The position numbers and the translations under genes were made by a program. Source: an uncultured Oscillospiraceae bacterium (GTDB taxonomy: Bacteria > Bacillota > Clostridia > Oscillospirales > Oscillospiraceae). Taken from it: a stretch of 64,000 nucleotides of DNA. Shown piece after piece: positions 10,636 through 57,310 of the stretch. The notes beneath the pieces were generated by a model. It saw only the letters and a program-made list of their open reading frames with translations, made no database searches and was not told the DNA's origin. The stretch spans positions 62,001-126,000 of the forward strand of contig CANROC010000009.1 in assembly GCA_947632175.1 (NCBI GenBank). Reading direction: 5' to 3'. The number at the start of each line of letters is the position of its first letter. Within the stretch, counting starts at the first letter, position 1.

Positions 10636-10723
10636 CCCGCCCCGGTGACCTCGCCGGGGCGGGTAAAATATCACATACGACAGCGAAAAAAAAGGTTTGC
10701 TTGCGGCTTCGCCGCATTTTTTT
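10636..10723 (+). terminator. Terminator hairpins downstream of the DUF362 gene
   Basis: First hairpin: 10-bp stem CCCGCCCCGG / CCGGGGCGGG (10636-10645 with 10654-10663) without a good T-tract. Second hairpin: TGCGGC / GCCGCA (10702-10707 with 10711-10716) followed by seven Ts, a normal Rho-independent terminator. The second belongs to the dispersed repeat block that begins here. Confidence 0.65.
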
Positions 10724-11185
10724 ATTCCCCACAGCGGCACGGGCGGACACATGGGTCCGCTCCTACGGGGAATAGGGAATGTTATCCCGTTCAACCGACA
10801 TGGGAAGTCATCGCAACGCGGGCCGCCAGGAGTGGCGGCCCCTACGGCGTTCATCGGAGACAATCCGAGCCCTGCAACGAGGGCCGCCGTGGGCGGCGGC
10901 CCGTACGGCATAAATTGAGCTGGTCCGATTTTCCGGAACCGTTGCAACAACGCACCTTGTAGAGGCCGGAGATGGGCAAGGGGGATTCGACCCCCCGTCC
11001 TTCGTCCCCCGTCCCCGCCGCGCGGGCAAATCTAAGAATGCGGCGAAGCCGCAACCTTTTTCGCCCCCTCCTCGTAGGAGGGGGGGCAGGGGGGCAGCGA
11101 ACGTTGAATGACAGAACGGTCCCGCTAATCCGCGCCCGCCAAAGCCCCTCCCAGAGGGAGGGACAATCGTGCCGGGAGCCAGCTC
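10685..11185. repeat. Dispersed mosaic repeat block A
   Basis: Non-coding segment of about 500 bp built from modules that recur in this window. They include a GCGGC-ttc-GCCGC hairpin; a GGGCGGACACATGGGTCCG palindrome near 10750; a segment with paired GGGCCGCC / GGCGGCCC arms near 10820; a CCCCTCCTCGTAGGAGGGG hairpin near 11065; and a CCCCTCCCAGAGGGAGG hairpin near 11146. Similar modules occur at 42406-43201, 44560-44713, 50398-50744 and 56510-57310. No convincing gene is present. Confidence 0.8.
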
Positions 11186-18350: not shown

Positions 18351-18369
18351 CCGCCCACACGCCGCACCG

Positions 18370-18726
18370 CCCCGCGCCTTTTGGCGCGGGGCTCAGGTTG
18401 TCGAAAAAGGCCTGCGGCCTTTTCCGACAAAGGGGAACGTGCGAAAAAGATTTCGGAAATGTCTGCGGACATTTCCGAAATCTTTTTCTGCTGTTTTGCT
18501 CCGCGCACGGCCTCGTCGTCGCCGATGCCGCTTTGCCTCGGGCTCCCTCCGGTCGCCCTCGGGCGCTGGCATCGCTCCTCCTCTCCCCAGCGGGCTTCGC
18601 CCGCCGGGGACCCCAGACCGCACACTCCGCAAAACAAAAGGTATTTTTTCCGACGTACATGCCGCCGGAAAAAATGCTCGATTTAAGTTTTTTGACAACC
18701 TGCGCCCCGCGCCAAAAGGCGCGGGG
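18370..18726. mobile_element. MITE-like palindromic element with 39-bp terminal inverted repeats
   Basis: 357-bp non-coding element. The terminal arms 18370-18408 and 18688-18726 are inverted repeats matching at 37 of 39 positions, and each arm contains its own CCCCGCGCC-tttt-GGCGCGGGG hairpin. Inside are an imperfect 15-bp hairpin (arms 18398-18412 and 18416-18430) and a perfect 20-bp hairpin (18444-18463 with 18468-18487, loop TGCG). The open frames crossing it on both strands arise from the symmetry. No transposase is present, so any movement would be in trans. Confidence 0.75.
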
Positions 18727-18766
18727 CTTTTCTTGGCCTTTTTTTGATATTTTTTTAACGAAACCC

Positions 18767-29761: not shown

Positions 29762-31258
29762 TTAATAATTCACGAAGCCGACGACAGACACCACATCATA
29801 GGAACTGCCATTCATCACACAAACGTAGTAGGTACCACGAGTAGTGATGGAAAAATCATGATTCACGGATCCACTAGCGGCAGTCACATAGCGGAAGGTA
29901 CCGCTAGGGTCAACAATACCGATCCACACAGCGGAAGACGCAGGCGACACAGATACATTAATGTTTATTTTTTGTCCCGCTTCCATGCTGCAAGCTTCTG
30001 TGGCAATACTGATAGACCCTTTGTCGACATCCCAGGCAATGGTTTTCATGGCTCTAGCTTTGCCGCCCAAATCCATAGAAATCGCCGTAGAGAGATCAAT
30101 GGTGGCGGTATATTCCGTCATCTGATCAATGGTGGCGGTATATTCCGTCATCTGATCAATGGTGACTATATCGGTATCTTTTTCCTCACATTTATACTCT
30201 TTGATGGCATTATCCTGCCCATCGCTAAAGCTAAGCGCGAGATCATCGGAAGTTTTGTCGGTGTCAACAGTTGCCGCGAACGCTGAAGTTGTGAGGCAAC
30301 CCACGACAAGGGCGAGGGCAAGCACCAGCCCCAGCAGAGAGTGGAAGTTTTTGTTGGGTTTCATCATAATAGATATTCTCCTTTTGAGTTTGTATCGGCA
30401 CGTGGTAAAAGAAACATACAGCTTCGATCCGACATACCGAGAGGTGGAAGCGTAGTTGATTAGGAGGTAACCATACTCTTTTCGCTGCTCATAATCGAGG
30501 AAACTGACAATTTCCTCGTCGCAGGAGGTCTCCAGCCAGTACGCAAAATCCTGGTTCAGCAGATAAACAATGGGGTTAAACCAGTGGATACATTGGATCA
30601 TGTTTATCAGGAGTTTCTTCCACAGGTCCCCACGCCGGAAGTGCGTTAACTCATGGGCAAGGATAAAACGGGCATCACTGTCTGGCAAGTTCTCTGACGG
30701 TAATAAAATCGTTGGGCGGAAGAATCCAATCAGCATGGGACTTTGAACCACGGGAGATGTCAGAAGCCGAATCTCACCGGTGACACCTACAAGGCGGGCG
30801 CTTTCCAGTGCAATCTGCTGAAAGCGGCCATTCAAATCGTTGCTCGCCTGCTCGATTAGGCGGCGGTAACGCAGGAGCCGCCAGATATTCCAGAAGATAA
30901 GGCTGGCGGCCACCAGAAGCCACACGGCTGCGATCCACTCGACCGTCAGTCCCCAATCAAAGCCGCCATTTATATGCCCAATTTGCGTGAGCTGTTTAGC
31001 GGTAATGACAGAGGTGGATGGGATATAAATCGACTCCGTGTTGCCATTGGCTGCGATAATGGAGGGGTGAACGGGGACTAGTGCCCACAGCTTATGGAGC
31101 GGCAAAACAAAGAGTAGGGAAATGGCTGTTATACTGCGGTACTGCCAGTTCTGGCTGAGGCGCTTCCTGCCGGCCACTAACAACAGTTTCATCAGCACAT
31201 ACGTCGTGCTTCCCGTGATGCTGAGCAGGGCAGTAGTCAAAAACAAATTGACAGCCAT
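29762..31258 (-). CDS. BlaR1/MecR1-like M56 peptidase with a repeat-bearing extracellular tail
   Basis: 498-residue membrane sensor-protease. The first 300 residues are an M56 domain with several membrane helices and the zinc motif HELTHFRRGD near residue 215. After a further membrane helix near residues 315-335 comes an extracellular region with two tandem TIDQMTEYTA units and a beta-rich C-terminus, not a penicillin-binding domain. By analogy with BlaR1 it would relieve BlaI repression on sensing an envelope signal. The ATG at 31258 has GAGG 6 bp upstream and is preferred to the ATG at 31270. Base composition is clearly lower in GC than its neighbours. Confidence 0.8.
   Translation of the reverse strand: MAVNLFLTTALLSITGSTTYVLMKLLLVAGRKRLSQNWQYRSITAISLLFVLPLHKLWALVPVHPSIIAANGNTESIYIPSTSVITAKQLTQIGHINGGFDWGLTVEWIAAVWLLVAASLIFWNIWRLLRYRRLIEQASNDLNGRFQQIALESARLVGVTGEIRLLTSPVVQSPMLIGFFRPTILLPSENLPDSDARFILAHELTHFRRGDLWKKLLINMIQCIHWFNPIVYLLNQDFAYWLETSCDEEIVSFLDYEQRKEYGYLLINYASTSRYVGSKLYVSFTTCRYKLKRRISIMMKPNKNFHSLLGLVLALALVVGCLTTSAFAATVDTDKTSDDLALSFSDGQDNAIKEYKCEEKDTDIVTIDQMTEYTATIDQMTEYTATIDLSTAISMDLGGKARAMKTIAWDVDKGSISIATEACSMEAGQKININVSVSPASSAVWIGIVDPSGTFRYVTAASGSVNHDFSITTRGTYYVCVMNGSSYDVVSVVGFVNY
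30095..30166. repeat. 30-bp tandem repeat inside the M56 gene
   Basis: Two perfect 30-bp copies (30095-30124, 30125-30154) and a partial third, each encoding ten residues (TIDQMTEYTA-type) in the extracellular tail. The length keeps the frame, so copy number could vary without breaking the protein. Confidence 0.85.
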
Positions 31259-32253: not shown

Positions 32254-32269
32254 CCCGGGTGAAAAGTGA

Positions 32270-32412
32270 ATATCGGGACCGCGGTTCGAAAGGTTGTTTA
32301 CTGAATAGATCAAACGGGGAAGCCGGTTCGAATCCGGCGCAACTGCCATTACTGTAACTGACGCGCCCGCTCTATGGGCGTGTCTCAAGTCAGAATACCG
32401 GCCCGGTTCTTT
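32270..32412 (+). ncRNA. Cobalamin riboswitch
   Basis: B12-sensing leader RNA. Visible conserved parts are GGGAAGCCGG with GAATCCGGCGCAACTGCC (B12-box core region near 32319-32348), ACTGTAACTGA, a GCGCCC / GGGCG hairpin, and the closing element AGTCAGAATACCGGCC (32388-32403). The arrangement matches the cobalamin aptamer class. It precedes a corrinoid uptake and salvage operon and is followed by a terminator, so B12 binding probably lowers expression of the whole operon. Confidence 0.9.
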
Positions 32413-32515
32413 GTCGCGATGCTTTCTGGGTAAAAGAGAAGTGCAGCGTTTGCCTTTGCCATTTGCAAGGGAGCGGTGCGCTCTTTTTTGCCCGTTTGGC
32501 AGGGGCTTGTATGCT

Positions 32516-41421: not shown

Positions 41422-42405
41422 ATGATCTTAGCGGACAAGATAACCAATCTACGGAAGAAAAACGGCTGGTCCCAGGAGGAGCTGGCGGAGAAGATGCGGG
41501 TGTCCCGCCAGGCGGTGTCCAAATGGGAGGGCGCGCAGACCGTGCCGGATCTGGAGAAGATTCTGGCGCTGAGCCGGCTTTTCGGCGTCACCACGGATTA
41601 TCTTCTCAAGGACGAGCTGGAGGAAGAGGAGTTTACGGACGAGCCGGACCGGGTCCCCGTCCAGCGCGTCTCCCTGGCACTGGCAAATGAATTTCTGGAA
41701 TGGCGGCGCCGGGCGGCCAAGCGCATCGCCGCCGGGGTCCTCTTGTGCGTCGTCTCCGTGATCCCACTGCTTTTGCTGAGCGCCGCCACGACGGTGCCGG
41801 GGACATCCGTCTCCGAACCTCTCGCCGCCGGCGCGGGCCTCGCGGCGCTGCTCGTCCTCGTCGCCGCCGCCGTGGCGCTCTTCGTCTCCTGCGGCTTTAA
41901 GGACGCGCCATACGAGTTCCTGGGCAGGGAGCCCTTCGAGACGGAATACGGCGTGGACGGCATGGTCCGGGAAAAGCGGAAGGCCTATCGGCCCGCCTAC
42001 GCAAAAACCAACATCATCGCCGCCTGCCTGTGCGTCCTGTCCCCCATCCCGCTTTTCGCGGGGCTGGTCACGGAAAATGAGTTTCTCATCGTGGCCATGC
42101 TGACGGTGACGCTCCTCCTGGCGGGCGTGGGCGCGGCGCTTTTCACCCTCTCGGGCGTGCGCTGGGCCGCCATGCAAAAGCTCCTGAAGGAGGGCGACTA
42201 CGCCCCGCGGGATCAAAGAACGGCCCGTATCAAGGAAACCGTCTCCACCGTCTACTGGCTCACCGCCACCGCCGTCTACCTCGCCTGGAGCTTCCTGACA
42301 AACGCCTGGGACCTCACCTGGCTCGTCTGGCCCCTCGCCGGCATCCTCTTCGCCGCCGTAATGGGTGTGTGCAGGCTGGTGACGGAGCGGGAAGCAAAGA
42401 AATAA
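41422..42405 (+). CDS. XRE-family regulator fused to a membrane domain
   Basis: 327-residue protein. Residues 1-65 are an XRE/Cro helix-turn-helix ([22 protein letters not shown], the common firmicute pattern) followed by an acidic linker. Residues 95-325 hold about six membrane helices in three hairpins with a cytoplasmic loop ([23 protein letters not shown]). Such proteins are probably membrane-tethered one-component regulators; signal and targets are unknown. GGGGAGGAAG precedes the ATG. Confidence 0.82.
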
Positions 42406-43201
42406 AGCCTCCGTGTCCAAAGCCCTTCCAAAGCTCCTCCCTCCGGGAGGGGTTGTCGAGCAAAGCGATGGGCAGGGCAGGAACGTCTCTTAACCTCCCC
42501 CCGGGGGAGGTGGCGCGAAGCGCCGGTAAGGTCCGTGCGGCGGCGGGAAAAAGGTTTGCGGCTTCGCCGCATTCTTTGATTCCCCACCCGCCCACCCCAC
42601 GATAATTGACACGTTTCGTACACCGCCGTACGGGCCGCATCTCCGCGCTAAGAGCCGCCGCTGCGCGGCGGTTGCGCTCGTGATGCGCGCCTGCGGTCGC
42701 AGGCCCACGGCGGCCCTTTTTCGTTGACTGGCTTGTACCGTTTTATCGGAACCGTTTCCGTCCCGCAACCGCGCACGGGCGGACACATGGGTCCGCCCCT
42801 ACGGGGGATGTGGGAGGTTATCCCATTCAACCGACATGGGAGGTCATTGAAACGCGGGTCGCCGGGGACGGCGACCCCTACGGCGGTGTTCGGGGGCAAT
42901 CTGAAACCTGCAATGCGGGCCGCCAGGAGTGGCGGTCCCTACGGCGTAATTGGGGCGGATTTGTTTTATCGGGACCGCTCTGTCATCCAACGCTCGCTGC
43001 CCCCCTGCCCCCCTCCTACGAGGAGGGGGTTCCGGGACGGAGGCGGGCGCGATTTATCGGAACGGTTCCGACAACACACCTTGTAGGGGCCGCCACTCTT
43101 GGCGGCCCGCACGCAACACATCCGGTTTTTCGGAAGCATCCGTTACGCCCCACGGGCTCGAATACCCCGCCGCTGCGGCGGCACCCCTTTTTCCGAAAAA
43201 G
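42406..43201. repeat. Dispersed mosaic repeat block B
   Basis: About 800 bp without a credible gene. Modules shared with other blocks are the CCTCCCTCCGGGAGG hairpin (near 42435), TTGCGGCTTCGCCGCA (near 42555), GGGCGGACACATGGGTCCG (near 42777), a segment with GGGTCGCC / GGCGACCC arms (42857-42878), an inverted copy of the CCTCGTAGGAGGGG module (near 43010) and the 45-bp unit 43157-43201. The stretch near 42650-42705 reappears inverted in block D near 50615-50670. Module order differs between blocks. Confidence 0.8.
43157..43201. repeat. Left copy of the 45-bp direct repeat bracketing the HNH island
   Basis: Begins CTCGAATACCCCGCCG and ends TTTTTCCGAAAAAG, with a GCCGC-tgc-GGCGGC palindrome inside. 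It is identical over all 45 bases to 44515-44559. After the right copy the sequence continues as in block D, GGGTCA then a short purine stretch; after this left copy it switches at 43202 to unrelated sequence, as expected for an insertion or recombination joint. Confidence 0.85.
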
Positions 43202-43277
43202 ACACGCTATTTCCATTTTCTTGCTGCGCAATCGTCCCGGAAGAGGTTGCGTTCGAACCGGGCTCGGAGGTGCCTGG

Positions 43278-43321
43278 GACCCCCTTGGGACCCCCTTGGG
43301 AGGTGCTTCGGACCCCCTTGG
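43278..43321. repeat. 11-bp tandem repeat at the left of the HNH island
   Basis: Four 11-bp units: GACCCCCTTGG at 43278-43288, 43289-43299 and 43311-43321, with a diverged unit GAGGTGCTTCG at 43300-43310. Its role is unknown. Confidence 0.8.
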
Positions 43322-43427
43322 GGCATACTTAGTCGATACTTTATCCATGCTTCGGCTTGCTTCGTGCCCGTGCCCTGGTGCTGATCGTAGCCGGCTACCA
43401 GGTACCACCGACGCGGCCTCCTGCGTG

Positions 43428-43605
43428 GGCCCTTGTCCGCGCCCGTCCCATTATGCCACGGCGTCAAGGGTCTCCGGCCGGCCCCGGCCTGGTGCTCCCT
43501 GGGGGCTGTGAGCGGGCCGGCCTCCGATGAACGCCGCCAGTGTGCGCACTGGCGTCGCCCTTGACTTGCCGTGCCCCTGGGGCCTCCTGGGCCCGGACAA
43601 GGGCC
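43428..43605 (+). ncRNA. Candidate structured RNA upstream of the HNH gene
   Basis: Four helices nest in this 178-nt span. P1: GGCCCTTGTCCG (43428-43439) with CGGACAAGGGCC (43594-43605), 12 perfect pairs over 154 nt. P2: CACGGC-GTCAAGGG (43457-43470) with CCCTTGAC-tt-GCCGTG (43558-43573), 14 pairs with one bulge. P3: GGCCGGCCC (43476-43484) with GGGCCGGCC (43514-43522). P4: CGCCAGTG (43535-43542) with CACTGGCG (43547-43554), TGCG loop. Together they form a multibranched RNA that ends just before the HNH ribosome site. A further stem, CCTGGT / ACCAGG (43374-43379 with 43397-43402), may extend it at the 5' side. The family is not identified. Confidence 0.6.
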
Positions 43606-43623
43606 AGAAAGGAGATGCCGGAA

Positions 43624-43938
43624 ATGGCAAGTGCAAACATCAGCAGGAAGACAAGGTTCGAAGTGTACGAGAGGGACGGCTTTCAATGCGCGCTGTGTGG
43701 CTGTCGCGATGGGTTGCAGATTCATCACGCGGTGCCACGAAGAGTAGGGGGGTCGGATTTTGCGGAGAATCTGATCACGCTGTGCTCGAAGTGTCACGCG
43801 CAGGCGCATGGGATTGATTGCTATCCGGGCGTGGTCGATCAAGAGGACGTGGAGCAGGCGTGCATGGAGTATCTGGCGGACATGTACACGGAGGTTATGG
43901 AGGACGGCACAACATCGACTTGGTATCCGTTCAAATGA
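43624..43938 (+). CDS. Small stand-alone HNH endonuclease
   Basis: 104-residue protein consisting almost wholly of an HNH domain. Zinc cysteines are C22-x2-C25 (CALC) and C54-x2-C57 (CSKC); active-site candidates are H34/H35 in QIHH, N49 in AENL and H58. The C-terminal 40 residues are acidic and helical. The ATG at 43624 has AAAGGAG 9 bp upstream; the ATG at 43615 abuts that site. No RuvC, PLMP or intron-encoded DNA-recognition domain is present. GC content is below that of the surrounding island. It is preceded by the structured RNA candidate and ends in a strong hairpin, suggesting a mobile nuclease element. Confidence 0.85.
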   Translation: MASANISRKTRFEVYERDGFQCALCGCRDGLQIHHAVPRRVGGSDFAENLITLCSKCHAQAHGIDCYPGVVDQEDVEQACMEYLADMYTEVMEDGTTSTWYPFK

Positions 43939-44029
43939 AACGGGGAGGCCCGGAGGCTTCGGCCTCCGGGTCTCCCTGCGTAGAAGTGATGTACCTGGGA
44001 CCTCAGAAAGACGGGCGCACTTTCTGAGG
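43932..44029 (-). ncRNA. Candidate short minus-strand RNA at the HNH 3' end
   Basis: Starting about 6 nt after the promoter at 44035-44063, the minus strand reads a 10-bp hairpin CCTCAGAAAG / CTTTCTGAGG (44029-44020 with 44010-44001), a 24-nt linker, then a 15-bp GC-rich hairpin with a CGAA loop (44-bp region 43976-43943) followed by GTTTCATTT. That is a compact 95-100-nt RNA with a 5' hairpin and a terminator-like 3' hairpin. Its end reaches the HNH stop codon, so it could touch HNH mRNA or serve as the HNH terminator. Confidence 0.55.
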
Positions 44030-44034
44030 ATACC

Positions 44035-44063
44035 ATTATACCACAAATTGGGCTGATTGTCAA
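44035..44063 (-). promoter_or_regulatory. Perfect consensus promoter inside the HNH island
   Basis: On the minus strand: TTGACA (44063-44058), 17-bp spacer ending TTTGTGG, TATAAT (44040-44035). Both boxes match the sigma-A consensus exactly. Confidence 0.8.
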
Positions 44064-44103
44064 GCCCAAATACAAGATGTTGTGGCTGGGGAAAACCTGG
44101 GGA

Positions 44104-44514
44104 AGATCTCAAGCGATTTCCGATCGGATAAACCCCGCTGAGATCTAAGCGACATATGATCGGGCCTCGACCTCTGCGCCCGGTGTGTCTGTTGTCGAAG
44201 CGTTGTCCTGCCTCCGGCCGCTTCGCGGCCTCCGAGGGCCCGGCTGGCGCCGGGCAAGGTACGCGCGCCCGCTTTAAACGCTCGGTGGGCCCGCCGCTAC
44301 GCGGCGGCTACGCCCCGCCCCCGGGGCCTTGCGGGGGACGGCCCCGGCGTCGGGGGCCCATCCTCGCCGGGCGCGCGGCCCACGCGGCCGGCGATTCCGC
44401 CAACGGTCGTTTCTGCGCTCGACGGTGCGCTGGTGGGCCCGTCCGCCGCCCTCCGGGGCCTGCGGCCCCTTGCGCCGCTGGCGCGGCGCCCCCGTGATCC
44501 AAGCATCTGCGTTT
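44104..44514. other. GC-rich hairpin array forming the right part of the HNH island
   Basis: No credible gene. A large hairpin AGATCTCAAGCG / CGCTGAGATCT (44104-44115 with 44136-44146) is followed by a chain of short strong hairpins: GGCCGC/GCGGCC (44216-44230), CCCGGC/GCCGGG (44239-44254), CCGCCGC/GCGGCGG (44291-44307), GGGGCC/GGCCCC (44455-44469) and GCGCCGC/GCGGCGC (44472-44489). The density of clean stems exceeds what I see in other gaps and suggests a structured RNA or DNA-recognition region. Confidence 0.55.
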
Positions 44515-44559
44515 CTCGAATACCCCGCCGCTGCGGCGGCACCCCTTTTTCCGAAAAAG
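44515..44559. repeat. Right copy of the 45-bp direct repeat bracketing the HNH island
   Basis: Identical over 45 bases to 43157-43201. It runs on into repeat block C as in the related block D, so this copy sits in its normal context. Confidence 0.85.
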
Positions 44560-44713
44560 GGGTCAAGGAAATAAGGTTGCGGCGCTTCGCGCCGCCTTTA
44601 TAAAAAAATGCGCCGCAAAGCGGCGCAAACCTTTTTCGCCCCCTCCTCGTAGGAGGGGGGGACAGGGGGGGAGCGAACGTGGGACGACGGGGCGGTTCCG
44701 GCTGACCGGTCGC
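44560..44713. repeat. Dispersed mosaic repeat block C
   Basis: Modules GCGGCGC-ttc-GCGCCGC (near 44580), GCGCCGC-aaa-GCGGCGC (44610-44626) and the CCCCTCCTCGTAGGAGGGG hairpin (near 44642) follow the right 45-bp repeat, in the same order as in block D near 50540-50590. Confidence 0.78.
44602..44626 (-). terminator. Terminator for the minus-strand cobalamin operon, supplied by a repeat module
   Basis: On the minus strand, stem GCGCCGC / GCGGCGC with a 3-nt loop followed by A and seven Ts (44608-44602). It is the first good terminator after the cobC stop. Confidence 0.65.
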
Positions 44714-45280
44714 TCATATCCCCTCATACCTCCCGCTCTCCGTGTCCACGGCATACCCTCTCCCCGCCGCCGGCTGCCACTGGTAGCGGGTTTTGTGTGC
44801 CTCGGGGAAAAGCGCCTGCATGATGGCGGCGATGGGGCCGCCGTGGGTGAAGAGGGCGGCGGGGCGGGCGTCGGCCAGGAGGCGGTCCAGCGCCGCGAGG
44901 ACTCGCTCGCGCATCTGATTCCCGCTCTCGCCGCCGGGAGCGACGTTGGCCTCGTTGTCGCCGGCGATCCAGGCAAGGTAGGCCGGGTCGTTTTTCAGCT
45001 CCTCATAGCCGCGCATCTCAAAGTCCCCGAAGTCCATCTCCCGAAGCCCCGGCTCCACCTCAAAGGGCACGGGGCCGTAGAGCTCCAAAAGCGTCTCCCG
45101 GCACCGCCGCGCGCCGCTGGTGAGCACGCGGAACCCCTCCAGACTCGGAAGGCCGCCGGAAGCCCGAAGCGACCGCAGCGCCTCTCTCCCCCGGTCCGTG
45201 AGGGGGAGGTCCGTTTTCCCGCAGTATAGATGCGCCTCGTTGGCCGCCGTCAGGCCGTGGCGAAACAGAAGAAGCTTCAT
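44714..45280 (-). CDS. cobC: Histidine phosphatase, probable alpha-ribazole phosphatase (CobC)
   Basis: 188-residue phosphoglycerate-mutase-like phosphatase. The phosphohistidine motif is LLLFRHGLTAANE (residues 3-15), with the second arginine in LTSGARRCRETL, FGDFEMRGYEEL, and the late catalytic histidine in LFTHGGPIAAIM. At the end of a cobT-cobU-cobS operon it probably dephosphorylates alpha-ribazole-5'-phosphate or adenosylcobalamin-5'-phosphate. The ATG at 45280 has GGGAGG upstream and overlaps the preceding stop. Confidence 0.85.
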   Translation of the reverse strand: MKLLLFRHGLTAANEAHLYCGKTDLPLTDRGREALRSLRASGGLPSLEGFRVLTSGARRCRETLLELYGPVPFEVEPGLREMDFGDFEMRGYEELKNDPAYLAWIAGDNEANVAPGGESGNQMRERVLAALDRLLADARPAALFTHGGPIAAIMQALFPEAHKTRYQWQPAAGRGYAVDTESGRYEGI

Positions 45281-50397: not shown

Positions 50398-50744
50398 CGG
50401 CCCCGCCGCAGAATTGCGGCGGCGGGAAAAGTTTTGCGCCTTCGGCACAGCTTTTGATTTCCCACCTGCCCATCCCCCCGCCGCCGCGGCGGCACTCCTT
50501 TTTCCGAAAAAGGGGTCAGGGGGAAAAAGGTTGCGGCGCTTCGCGCCGCGTTTATAAAGAATTGCGCCGCAAAGCGGCGCAAACCTTTTTGACCCACTTC
50601 GGGGCAAAGGCTGCGCCCGCAGGCGCGCATCACGAGGCCAACCGCCCCGAAGGGGCGGCTCTTAGGCCGGAGACGAGGCGGCGCGAAGCGCCGGAAAGGT
50701 CGCCGCGCGGGCAAAACTAACACTGCGCCGCATGCCTTTCCCGC
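50398..50744. repeat. Dispersed mosaic repeat block D
   Basis: Non-coding gap. It contains a CCGCCGCCGCGGCGGC palindrome followed by TTTTTCCGAAAAAGGGGTCA (near 50490-50516, a diverged copy of the 45-bp unit), GCGGCGC-ttc-GCGCCGC and GCGCCGC-aaa-GCGGCGC hairpins (50530-50580), and a segment near 50615-50670 that matches block B in inverted orientation. Confidence 0.78.
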
Positions 50745-56509: not shown

Positions 56510-57310
56510 AATTCACAATTCTTTTACACCCGCGGCGAAAAAAGGTTGCGCCGCTCCGCGCCGCCTTCATAAAAAATTACGCCGCAGGCGCAAACCTTTT
56601 TGAGCCCCCTCCTCGTAGGAGGGAGGCAGGGGGGAAGCAAACGTCAGATACCGGACCGGTCCCCACAAAACGTACCGGCTTCCGCCTCGCACCAAAGCCC
56701 CTCCCTCCGGGAGGGGTGGCCGCGCGAAGCGCCGGCCAGGGTGGGGGCGTCTATTTTTCCTGTTTGCGTTATCCGCCGTAGGGGTCGCCCTCCCGGGCGA
56801 CCCGCCTATCGATAATCGACCCGCCCCAATCACCGCCGTACGGGCCGCCGCCCACGGCGGCCCTTTTCCGTTGACTGACATGTACCGTTTTTCGGAACCG
56901 TTCCCATCCGGCAACGTGCCCCGGGCGGACACATGGGTCCGCCCCTACGGTGAATATGGAAGGTTATCCCATTCAACCAACATTGGAAATCATCGCAACG
57001 CGGGTCGCCGGGGACGGCGACCCCTACGGCGTGAATGGATACGCATCCCAAAAACGGTAGGGGCGGGTTCCAAACCCGCCCGTCCCCCGTCCCCGCCGCG
57101 CGGGCAAATCAAAGCCTGCGCCGCAGGCGCAACCTTTTTCGCCCCCTCCTCGTAGGAGGGGGGCAGGGGGGCAGCGAACGTCGGATACCGGACCGGTCCA
57201 GACAAAACGCGCCGGCTTCCGCCTCGCACCAAAGCCCCTCCCTCCGGGAGGGGTGCCCGCGCAAAGCGCCGGAAAGGTCCCCGCCGCGCGGACCACAAAA
57301 AATTGCCCCC
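56510..57310. repeat. Dispersed mosaic repeat block E with a duplicated 145-bp module
   Basis: Gap of about 850 bp without a credible gene. Segments 56593-56740 and 57131-57277 are near-identical direct copies carrying the CCTCCTCGTAGGAGG hairpin, a GATACCGGACCGGTCC palindrome and the CCCCTCCCTCCGGGAGGGG hairpin. Between them lie the GGGCGGACACATGGGTCCG palindrome (near 56923) and GGGTCGCC / GGCGACCC segments (56782-56800 and 57002-57024). Confidence 0.8.

Follow-up and report, generated by a model that had tools for sequence, protein, structure and literature searches.

Small HNH endonuclease elements bracketed by long direct repeats in Oscillospiraceae and related bacteria: a probable mobile family

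Why a 1,313-bp segment carrying one small HNH endonuclease gene should lie between two identical 45-bp direct repeats (positions 43157-43201 and 44515-44559) is the question raised by a locus in the genome of an uncultured Oscillospiraceae bacterium (GenBank assembly GCA_947632175.1, contig CANROC010000009.1, positions 62,001 to 126,000; this whole stretch of 64,000 nucleotides is referred to as the window). An initial annotation, made from the letters of the sequence, had described the perfect repeat pair, which was confirmed, and had proposed that the segment is a mobile or formerly mobile HNH-plus-RNA element inserted into a dispersed repeat. This proposal is supported by the analysis described here. 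The segment belongs to a family of small mobile elements, about 1.0-2.2 kb long, in which the sole conserved protein is the HNH endonuclease and the other conserved parts are structured nucleic-acid segments. The overall explanation that we favor, with modest confidence, is that of a mobile HNH-RNA element that is inserted through a site-specific nick at one junction and a loose second break.

The host repeat provides the first evidence for insertion. A 162-bp part of it has 40 matches in the genome at 85-100% identity, and the repeat matches both flanks of the segment, on the left to 43201 and on the right from 44515. Among 29 copies fetched from the same genome, the 45-mer is present in 26, with 0-4 mismatches, and leads directly into sequence beginning GGGT, like that to the right of 44559; the remaining three are more diverged. 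Because these copies are uninterrupted, the 45-bp repeat is not a chance occurrence, and the interval together with one 45-mer constitutes an insertion. The 45-mer is the conserved core of the host repeat, identical in 12 of the 29 copies, and therefore its identity at the window locus alone is no proof of recent duplication. Empty sites are thus present in the same genome, and they were also found in relatives for two other members of the family, as described below.

The expectation of further copies held in part: no second copy exists in the genome itself, while a protein search of 400 genomes of Oscillospiraceae recovered strong relatives (at least 79 bits), at different sites, in 19 genomes, the window genome included, and in 3 of the 10 members of the window genus that were sampled. 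Relatives named among the best 80 of 528 candidates, of which the first 19 are the close ones, come from uncultured Oscillospiraceae metagenome-assembled genomes, Yanshouia hominis, Flavonifractor, Dysosmobacter, and Oscillibacter. A scan of 394 genomes of the order gave matches at E 1e-15 in eight, five of them in two other families, and a scan of 398 genomes of the phylum gave five matches besides the window genome; four of these five, the four that were read, look from their motif like IscB-type open reading frames (ORFs). From these scans, the family appears so far in one bacterial order, and sequence comparison places the element in a family without a match in the libraries searched. Neither viruses nor plasmids and phages proved to be a home for it. 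The matches listed from a single-protein scan of viral contigs included no relatives, the best 80 from an alignment scan of such contigs were short generic HNH matches at no more than 53% identity, and the 45 plasmid and 76 phage records that matched were all below 60% identity. In the open-licence literature, no description of the family was found in titles or abstract openings among the matches listed, which for one broad query were 12 of 10,771 papers.

Long direct repeats are the most distinctive property of the family. Thirty-seven loci were examined, the window included and three duplicates of other loci (L098, L103, and L106) removed. At 28 of these, a copy of a direct repeat of 34-143 bp (median 53, with 0-4 mismatches) stands on either side of the HNH gene, and each of the nine loci without a bracketing repeat has less than 1 kb on one side. 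Exact repeats of at least 30 bp were found at 27 of the 37 family loci (the L099 repeat reaches 30 bp only with a mismatch), versus none of 52 generic HNH loci (longest 23) and one of 29 host-repeat loci (31 bp). L289, L290, and L291, which come from the two further families mentioned above, have repeats of 40, 84, and 36 bp with 0-2 mismatches, that of L290 being partly low-complexity; L292 has no direct repeat within 3.4 kb. At L080, L083, L084, and L094, the repeat was picked from several candidates. Tandem copies at one site (L094, L104, and apparently L288) fit a target that is left intact, because the duplication restores it. Besides the tandem L104 and L094, the irregular members are L087, with nested repeats in its target, and L089, with an HNH remnant at START, as the element end 5' of the HNH gene is termed here, the other being END. 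The presence of the L084 START segment also beyond the far end of the target gene (2712 and 5908, in reverse-complement orientation) suggests a rearranged insertion. That this is a mobile family with long direct repeats can be stated with high confidence. An ancient tandem duplication or an assembly artefact, which would make the locus immobile, has in its favor the single copy in this genome and nothing more; with the same anatomy at different targets in those 28 loci, its probability is negligible, and the empty sites refute it.

These empty sites in relatives concern two protein-coding targets. A joined-flank query for the insertion at the rplL gene of genome G271 was uninterrupted in 15 of 20 genus members, two genomes (G271 and G755) being occupied and three without a usable match. 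The query for the insertion in a FemAB gene (L077) matched in 10 of 21 genus members, with identities of 66-76% and with the join spanned by the best match in each of the ten; some of these matches may be paralogues. The two copies of the L077 repeat agree at 35 of 35 positions, compared with 6-12 differences at 15 loci in relatives (paralogues included), and the repeat is therefore a true target-site duplication, made from the local target or from that of a very close strain.

The targets are diverse. Those in protein genes encode ribosomal protein L7/L12 (in two genomes), YchF, nicotinate phosphoribosyltransferase, a metallophosphoesterase, an FAD-binding protein, and FemAB; others are the 5' end of an EngA-like GTPase gene, tRNA-Leu, and the 3' end of 6S RNA (L083), and the target gene of L093 gave no Pfam family match. 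Three unrelated targets are occupied within one genus, by the window element, L077, and L078. Nine insertions lie at gene ends (L083, L084, L085, L088, L093, L102, L109, L111, and L112; chosen by inspection, without a formal control), and in eight of them, L109 being the exception, a stop codon or RNA end falls within ~13 bp of one repeat edge. L090 resembles these by eye, on a contig too short for the test. Gene-end targets are antisense to the element, and by supplying the 3' end again the repeat leaves the target gene whole, with differing last codons of the rebuilt gene in L085. In FemAB the insertion lies within the first third of the gene, and gene rescue is therefore no rule.

Integrases typically use targets such as tRNA-Leu, 6S RNA, rplL, and ychF and typically restore gene 3' ends. 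The elements might accordingly be satellites that a helper tyrosine or serine recombinase integrates, the repeats being attL/attR identity blocks that rebuild gene 3' ends; the repeat edges near stop codons agree with this as well. So do L111, in which the repeat starts beside the anticodon arm and an inverted repeat is present, and L088, in which the functional right copy of rplL is followed by a terminator resembling that of the L109 rplL from another species, as if carried in, and a native-type terminator still follows the left copy. Three tests were made for an integrase-type core, two of which gave no signal and one a slight excess. Inverted repeats around the junction scored 4.83 versus 4.78 in a control stretch (23 loci), no inverted repeat links the repeat end and START, and the repeat end compared with the flank beyond it gave the slight excess, 13 of 200 permutations being as high. 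The inverted-repeat tests, and the guide test described below, leave out L079, L087, and L104; those on repeat ends also leave out L084, and the control-stretch comparison L080 and L099, where the region was too short. Set against a helper recombinase are also the similar START at many unrelated targets, the FemAB repeat, which lies inside a gene and is locally made, and the lack of a recognized recombinase among the longest ORFs, and we consider it unlikely.

Repeat edges near stop codons and the L088 terminator are likewise the reason for considering a carried gene tail. Under this alternative, HNH cleavage would be followed by homologous recombination, through which a homing endonuclease element would spread together with a replacement gene tail and without transposition of its own. 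Low copy number, patchy presence among the sampled genus members, sites common within lineages, and purifying selection on the HNH protein would be expected of such an element, but the three unrelated targets within one genus would not. The duplication rebuilds the junction site, so there is no obvious self-protection, and because the local FemAB duplication needs a non-homologous event, the carried gene tail is kept only as a rival, and a rather unlikely one.

The junctions themselves are asymmetric. START falls at the same nucleotide in the window element and L097, both in the host repeat (repeats of 45 versus 40 bp), and again in L088 and L109, both in rplL (93 versus 143 bp). The base preceding START is G in 21 of 28 elements, a hairpin is seen by eye near START in many members, and END is variable between members. 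In the explanation that we favor, the HNH protein, perhaps complexed with element RNA, would cut or nick one target strand at the START junction, whose position is specific within a lineage and usually after a G. The opposite strand would be broken at a loose distance of 34-143 bp. Either host repair, working from DNA, or a reverse transcriptase provided in trans, working from RNA, would copy the element into the resulting wide stagger, and filling of the stagger would yield the long duplication. We propose that gene 3' ends retain such insertions because the gene is left complete by the duplication. The HNH protein is assigned the first nick because the element offers no other enzyme for it. 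In combination, a junction fixed at one end, a loose break on the opposite side, and long staggers that are filled in resemble nick-primed insertion. That the HNH protein makes the START nick, with a loose second break, is a reasonable but tentative proposal; any particular copying enzyme is more doubtful than this. It is also possible, and suggested with somewhat greater reserve than the nick, that these are a transposase-free class of bacterial mobile elements, in which a ~104-aa HNH protein and structured RNA nick site-specifically and the element is copied into a 34-143 bp stagger with only the help of host or resident enzymes.

The source of a copying activity is central to a further alternative, in which a group II intron or another resident reverse transcriptase copies the structured RNA at the nick, in the manner of non-LTR elements. 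One fixed junction with a loose, long target duplication fits this alternative, as do the covarying helices and an HNH profile that also matches the group II maturase endonuclease domain, and the genome contains four RVT_1 reverse-transcriptase loci (contigs C6, C7, and C19) that are possible helpers in trans. However, the fixed end lies upstream of the coding strand, so that the template would be the minus strand, and the minus-strand RNA of L078 appears by eye to stop at a terminator. No tails and no truncation series were seen, and copy number is low; such retromobility is judged somewhat unlikely. Within the elements, no transposase, integrase, or reverse transcriptase was recognized in a scan limited to ten of the longest ORFs, which come from nine elements; nine of these ORFs lack a Pfam match at E 0.01, and the other one includes the HNH gene. 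All ORFs of L085 are shorter than 120 aa. Some members add a small ribbon-helix-helix (RHH)-like ORF, and of six that were translated by hand, two reach PF01402, both below the cut-off.

The HNH gene predicted by the initial annotation matches Pfam HNH (PF01844) when the ORF is read in a longer form of 132 aa, with a score of 38.9 bits (cut-off 21.4). Across 18 sequences its HNH and zinc residues do not vary, and dN/dS between the window element and L097 is 0.046, a rough value because dS is saturated; these comparisons indicate that the protein is under purifying selection. The best NCBIfam match is the IscB HNH (51.5 bits versus a cut-off of 175; best in 18 of 18 members), and the best match in the PDB is also IscB. 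A reduced OMEGA system, IscB- or IshB-like and RNA-guided but without RuvC and PLMP, was therefore weighed; the structured segment immediately before the gene, an arrangement also found in IscB, and the IscB-type appearance of four of the five non-family phylum matches would agree with it. HEARO (RF02033), however, has no match in window 42400-44800 up to E 5 or, at gathering level, in 31 relative loci, and RuvC and PLMP regions are absent, the matches of the 104-aa protein covering HNH only. For 25 of 28 elements, with junction +/-40 compared, guide-like matching scored 9.52 against the element's own target and 9.27 against those of others, so that RNA-guided targeting was rejected within this interval. 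We know of no long duplication made by IS200/605-type elements. An origin from IscB was checked with an HNH tree, in which the family forms one clade (95/86) with no clear sister group. A reduced OMEGA system is thus very improbable, in keeping with the earlier remark that the protein does not match the known OMEGA nucleases.

Part of the structured sequence noted in the initial annotation is under selection as well. The leader upstream of the HNH gene folds more stably than 100 of 100 shuffles on the plus strand (z -3.9) and than 97 of 100 on the minus strand (z -1.9). Between the window element and L097 it is 86.8% identical, compared with 77.1% for the gene, and this greater conservation, despite saturated synonymous sites (dS about 2.2), indicates that the leader is under selection. 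In the outer stem of helix P1, 118 of 129 cells are Watson-Crick pairs in 19 hand-extracted sequences (shuffled mean 60, maximum 82); the corresponding count for an END hairpin, whose loop contains a run of G, is 98 of 99 (11 members; shuffled mean 65, maximum 86). Stem arms were picked by hand, which favors pairing; MAFFT misaligned the END hairpin stems. An automatic scan of the 37 loci, made without a shuffled control, found the P1 outer stem in 27, with 205 of 235 cells Watson-Crick. The anticipated covariation was found, and members usually have the covarying helix P1 5' of the HNH gene. In L083, a 42-bp GTCAAGGG...CCCTTGAC hairpin occurs twice in one element, on either side of the HNH gene. 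Rfam does not recognize the element RNA, and no intron model matches at gathering level in the window or the relative loci; with direct repeats of 34-143 bp and gene-end targets antisense to the element, a group I or group II intron was rejected.

Several points weigh against an HNH-initiated nick followed by copying into a stagger. Only two pairs of elements share a target, and the independence of the insertions in each is an assumption. Repeat edges near a stop codon in eight of nine cases are not predicted by a random stagger; selection combined with erosion of the END side is a guess at their origin. The slight inverted-repeat excess at repeat ends also counts against it. The enzymatic role of the HNH protein is a prediction, and since neither a reverse transcriptase nor a transposase was recognized, a factor in trans or host repair is required. 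The precise end, being 5' of the HNH gene, would be the wrong end for priming by HNH mRNA. As for the RNA, the automatic scan did not recover the P1 outer stem at 10 of the 37 loci, and the END hairpin was seen in 11 members only, the window member having neither it nor an RHH-like ORF. Mismatches on the plus strand in the automatic P1 scan (17 A.C versus 9 G.T) lean weakly toward a structured RNA on the minus strand, the strand not being settled.

The remaining parts listed by the initial annotation, an 11-bp tandem repeat, a consensus minus-strand promoter with a hairpin RNA, and a chain of GC-rich hairpins, are all present (Table 1). The 11-bp unit is altered in parallel in L097, an element 241 bp longer than that of the window, chiefly in the GC-rich 3' part, and the GC-rich hairpin chain folds with a z of -5.9 (20 shuffles). 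The minus-strand promoter beyond the HNH gene is common to the window element and L078, in both of which it is perfect, and to L097, with one mismatch. In the first hairpin of the putative ~95-nt RNA, the loop is kept and L097 has a compensatory change.

Table 1. Coordinates of the element, its parts, and the surrounding repeats in the window.
Feature	Position	Strand	Remarks
Left direct-repeat copy, 45 bp	43157..43201	.	target-site duplication; core of host dispersed repeat
Inserted element	43202..44514	+	START 43202, END 44514; no counterpart in 26/29 host-repeat copies; single copy; same START junction in L097
START-proximal hairpin TTGC-TGC-GCAA	43221..43231	.	candidate equivalent of the START hairpin of other members (GGTAT-stem-AGGGTA); equivalence by eye
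11-bp repeat ACCCCCTTGGG	43279..43322	+	two tandem copies from 43279, third one unit further
Helix P1	43457..43573	.	outer stem CACGGC/GCCGTG, TT bulge, core GTCAAGGG/CCCTTGAC; covariation, fold
Shine-Dalgarno-like AGAAAGGAG	43606..43614	+	
HNH endonuclease gene, 104 aa	43624..43938	+	profile match; AlphaFold model pLDDT 91.5
Putative ~95-nt RNA	43935..44029	-	from consensus promoter; first hairpin 44001-44029
Strong hairpin between HNH stop and minus-strand RNA	43942..43976	.	possible shared terminator
Consensus promoter TTGACA-17-TATAAT	44035..44063	-	-35 at 44063-44058, -10 at 44040-44035
GC-rich 3' part	44160..44514	.	differs between members
Right direct-repeat copy, 45 bp	44515..44559	.	
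Pieces of large GC-rich dispersed repeat family	10701-11139, 42428-43201, 44515-44715, 50434-50706, 56544-57292		conserved 45-bp core ending in TTTTTCCGAAAAAG

Elsewhere in the window are a cobalamin riboswitch (41 bits) at 32265-32420 on the plus strand, an exact 30-bp tandem duplication at 30094-30153, and 40-nt inverted repeats that are 95% complementary and 279 nt apart (18369-18408 and 18688-18727).

If the favored explanation is true, these elements would represent a new way for DNA to move, by means of a 104-aa HNH nuclease, a structured RNA, and very long target duplications, and would bear on how HNH nucleases entered IscB and Cas9. The elements are small and well comparable across species, and safe sites at gene 3' ends could be of interest for genome engineering.

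Among the closest known systems is HEARO / OMEGA IscB, with which IshB is grouped. It shares with the present family a small mobile HNH gene directly after a structured RNA and the HNH domain closest in NCBIfam and the PDB; the elements described here differ in lacking RuvC, PLMP, a HEARO match, and a guide match, and in having long target duplications. HEARO RNA is described as occurring in IscB 5' UTRs (PMC9755519). Long variable direct repeats, of 8-514 bp, are described for IS1549 and IS1634 of the IS1634 family (PMC2266710). The repeats of the HNH family, at 34-143 bp, are alike in this respect, whereas those insertion sequences encode transposases and none was recognized in the HNH elements. 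To our knowledge, neither an HNH protein nor a structured RNA is associated with IS1549 or IS1634. Integrative elements are similar in their kinds of target (tRNA, 6S RNA, rplL, and ychF) and in restored 3' ends, but the HNH elements are 1-2 kb in size, with no recognized recombinase and no clear core inverted repeat. In fungal mitochondrial homing genes, an endonuclease unit lies near a gene end, the host gene 3' end is duplicated, and the gene remains whole; the HNH family differs in its many unrelated targets and in a FemAB repeat that lies within the gene. Finally, non-LTR retroelements such as R2 resemble the proposed mechanism in a site-specific nick, one precise junction, a variable target duplication, and a structured RNA; in the HNH elements, no reverse transcriptase was recognized and the precise end is on the wrong side of the ORF.

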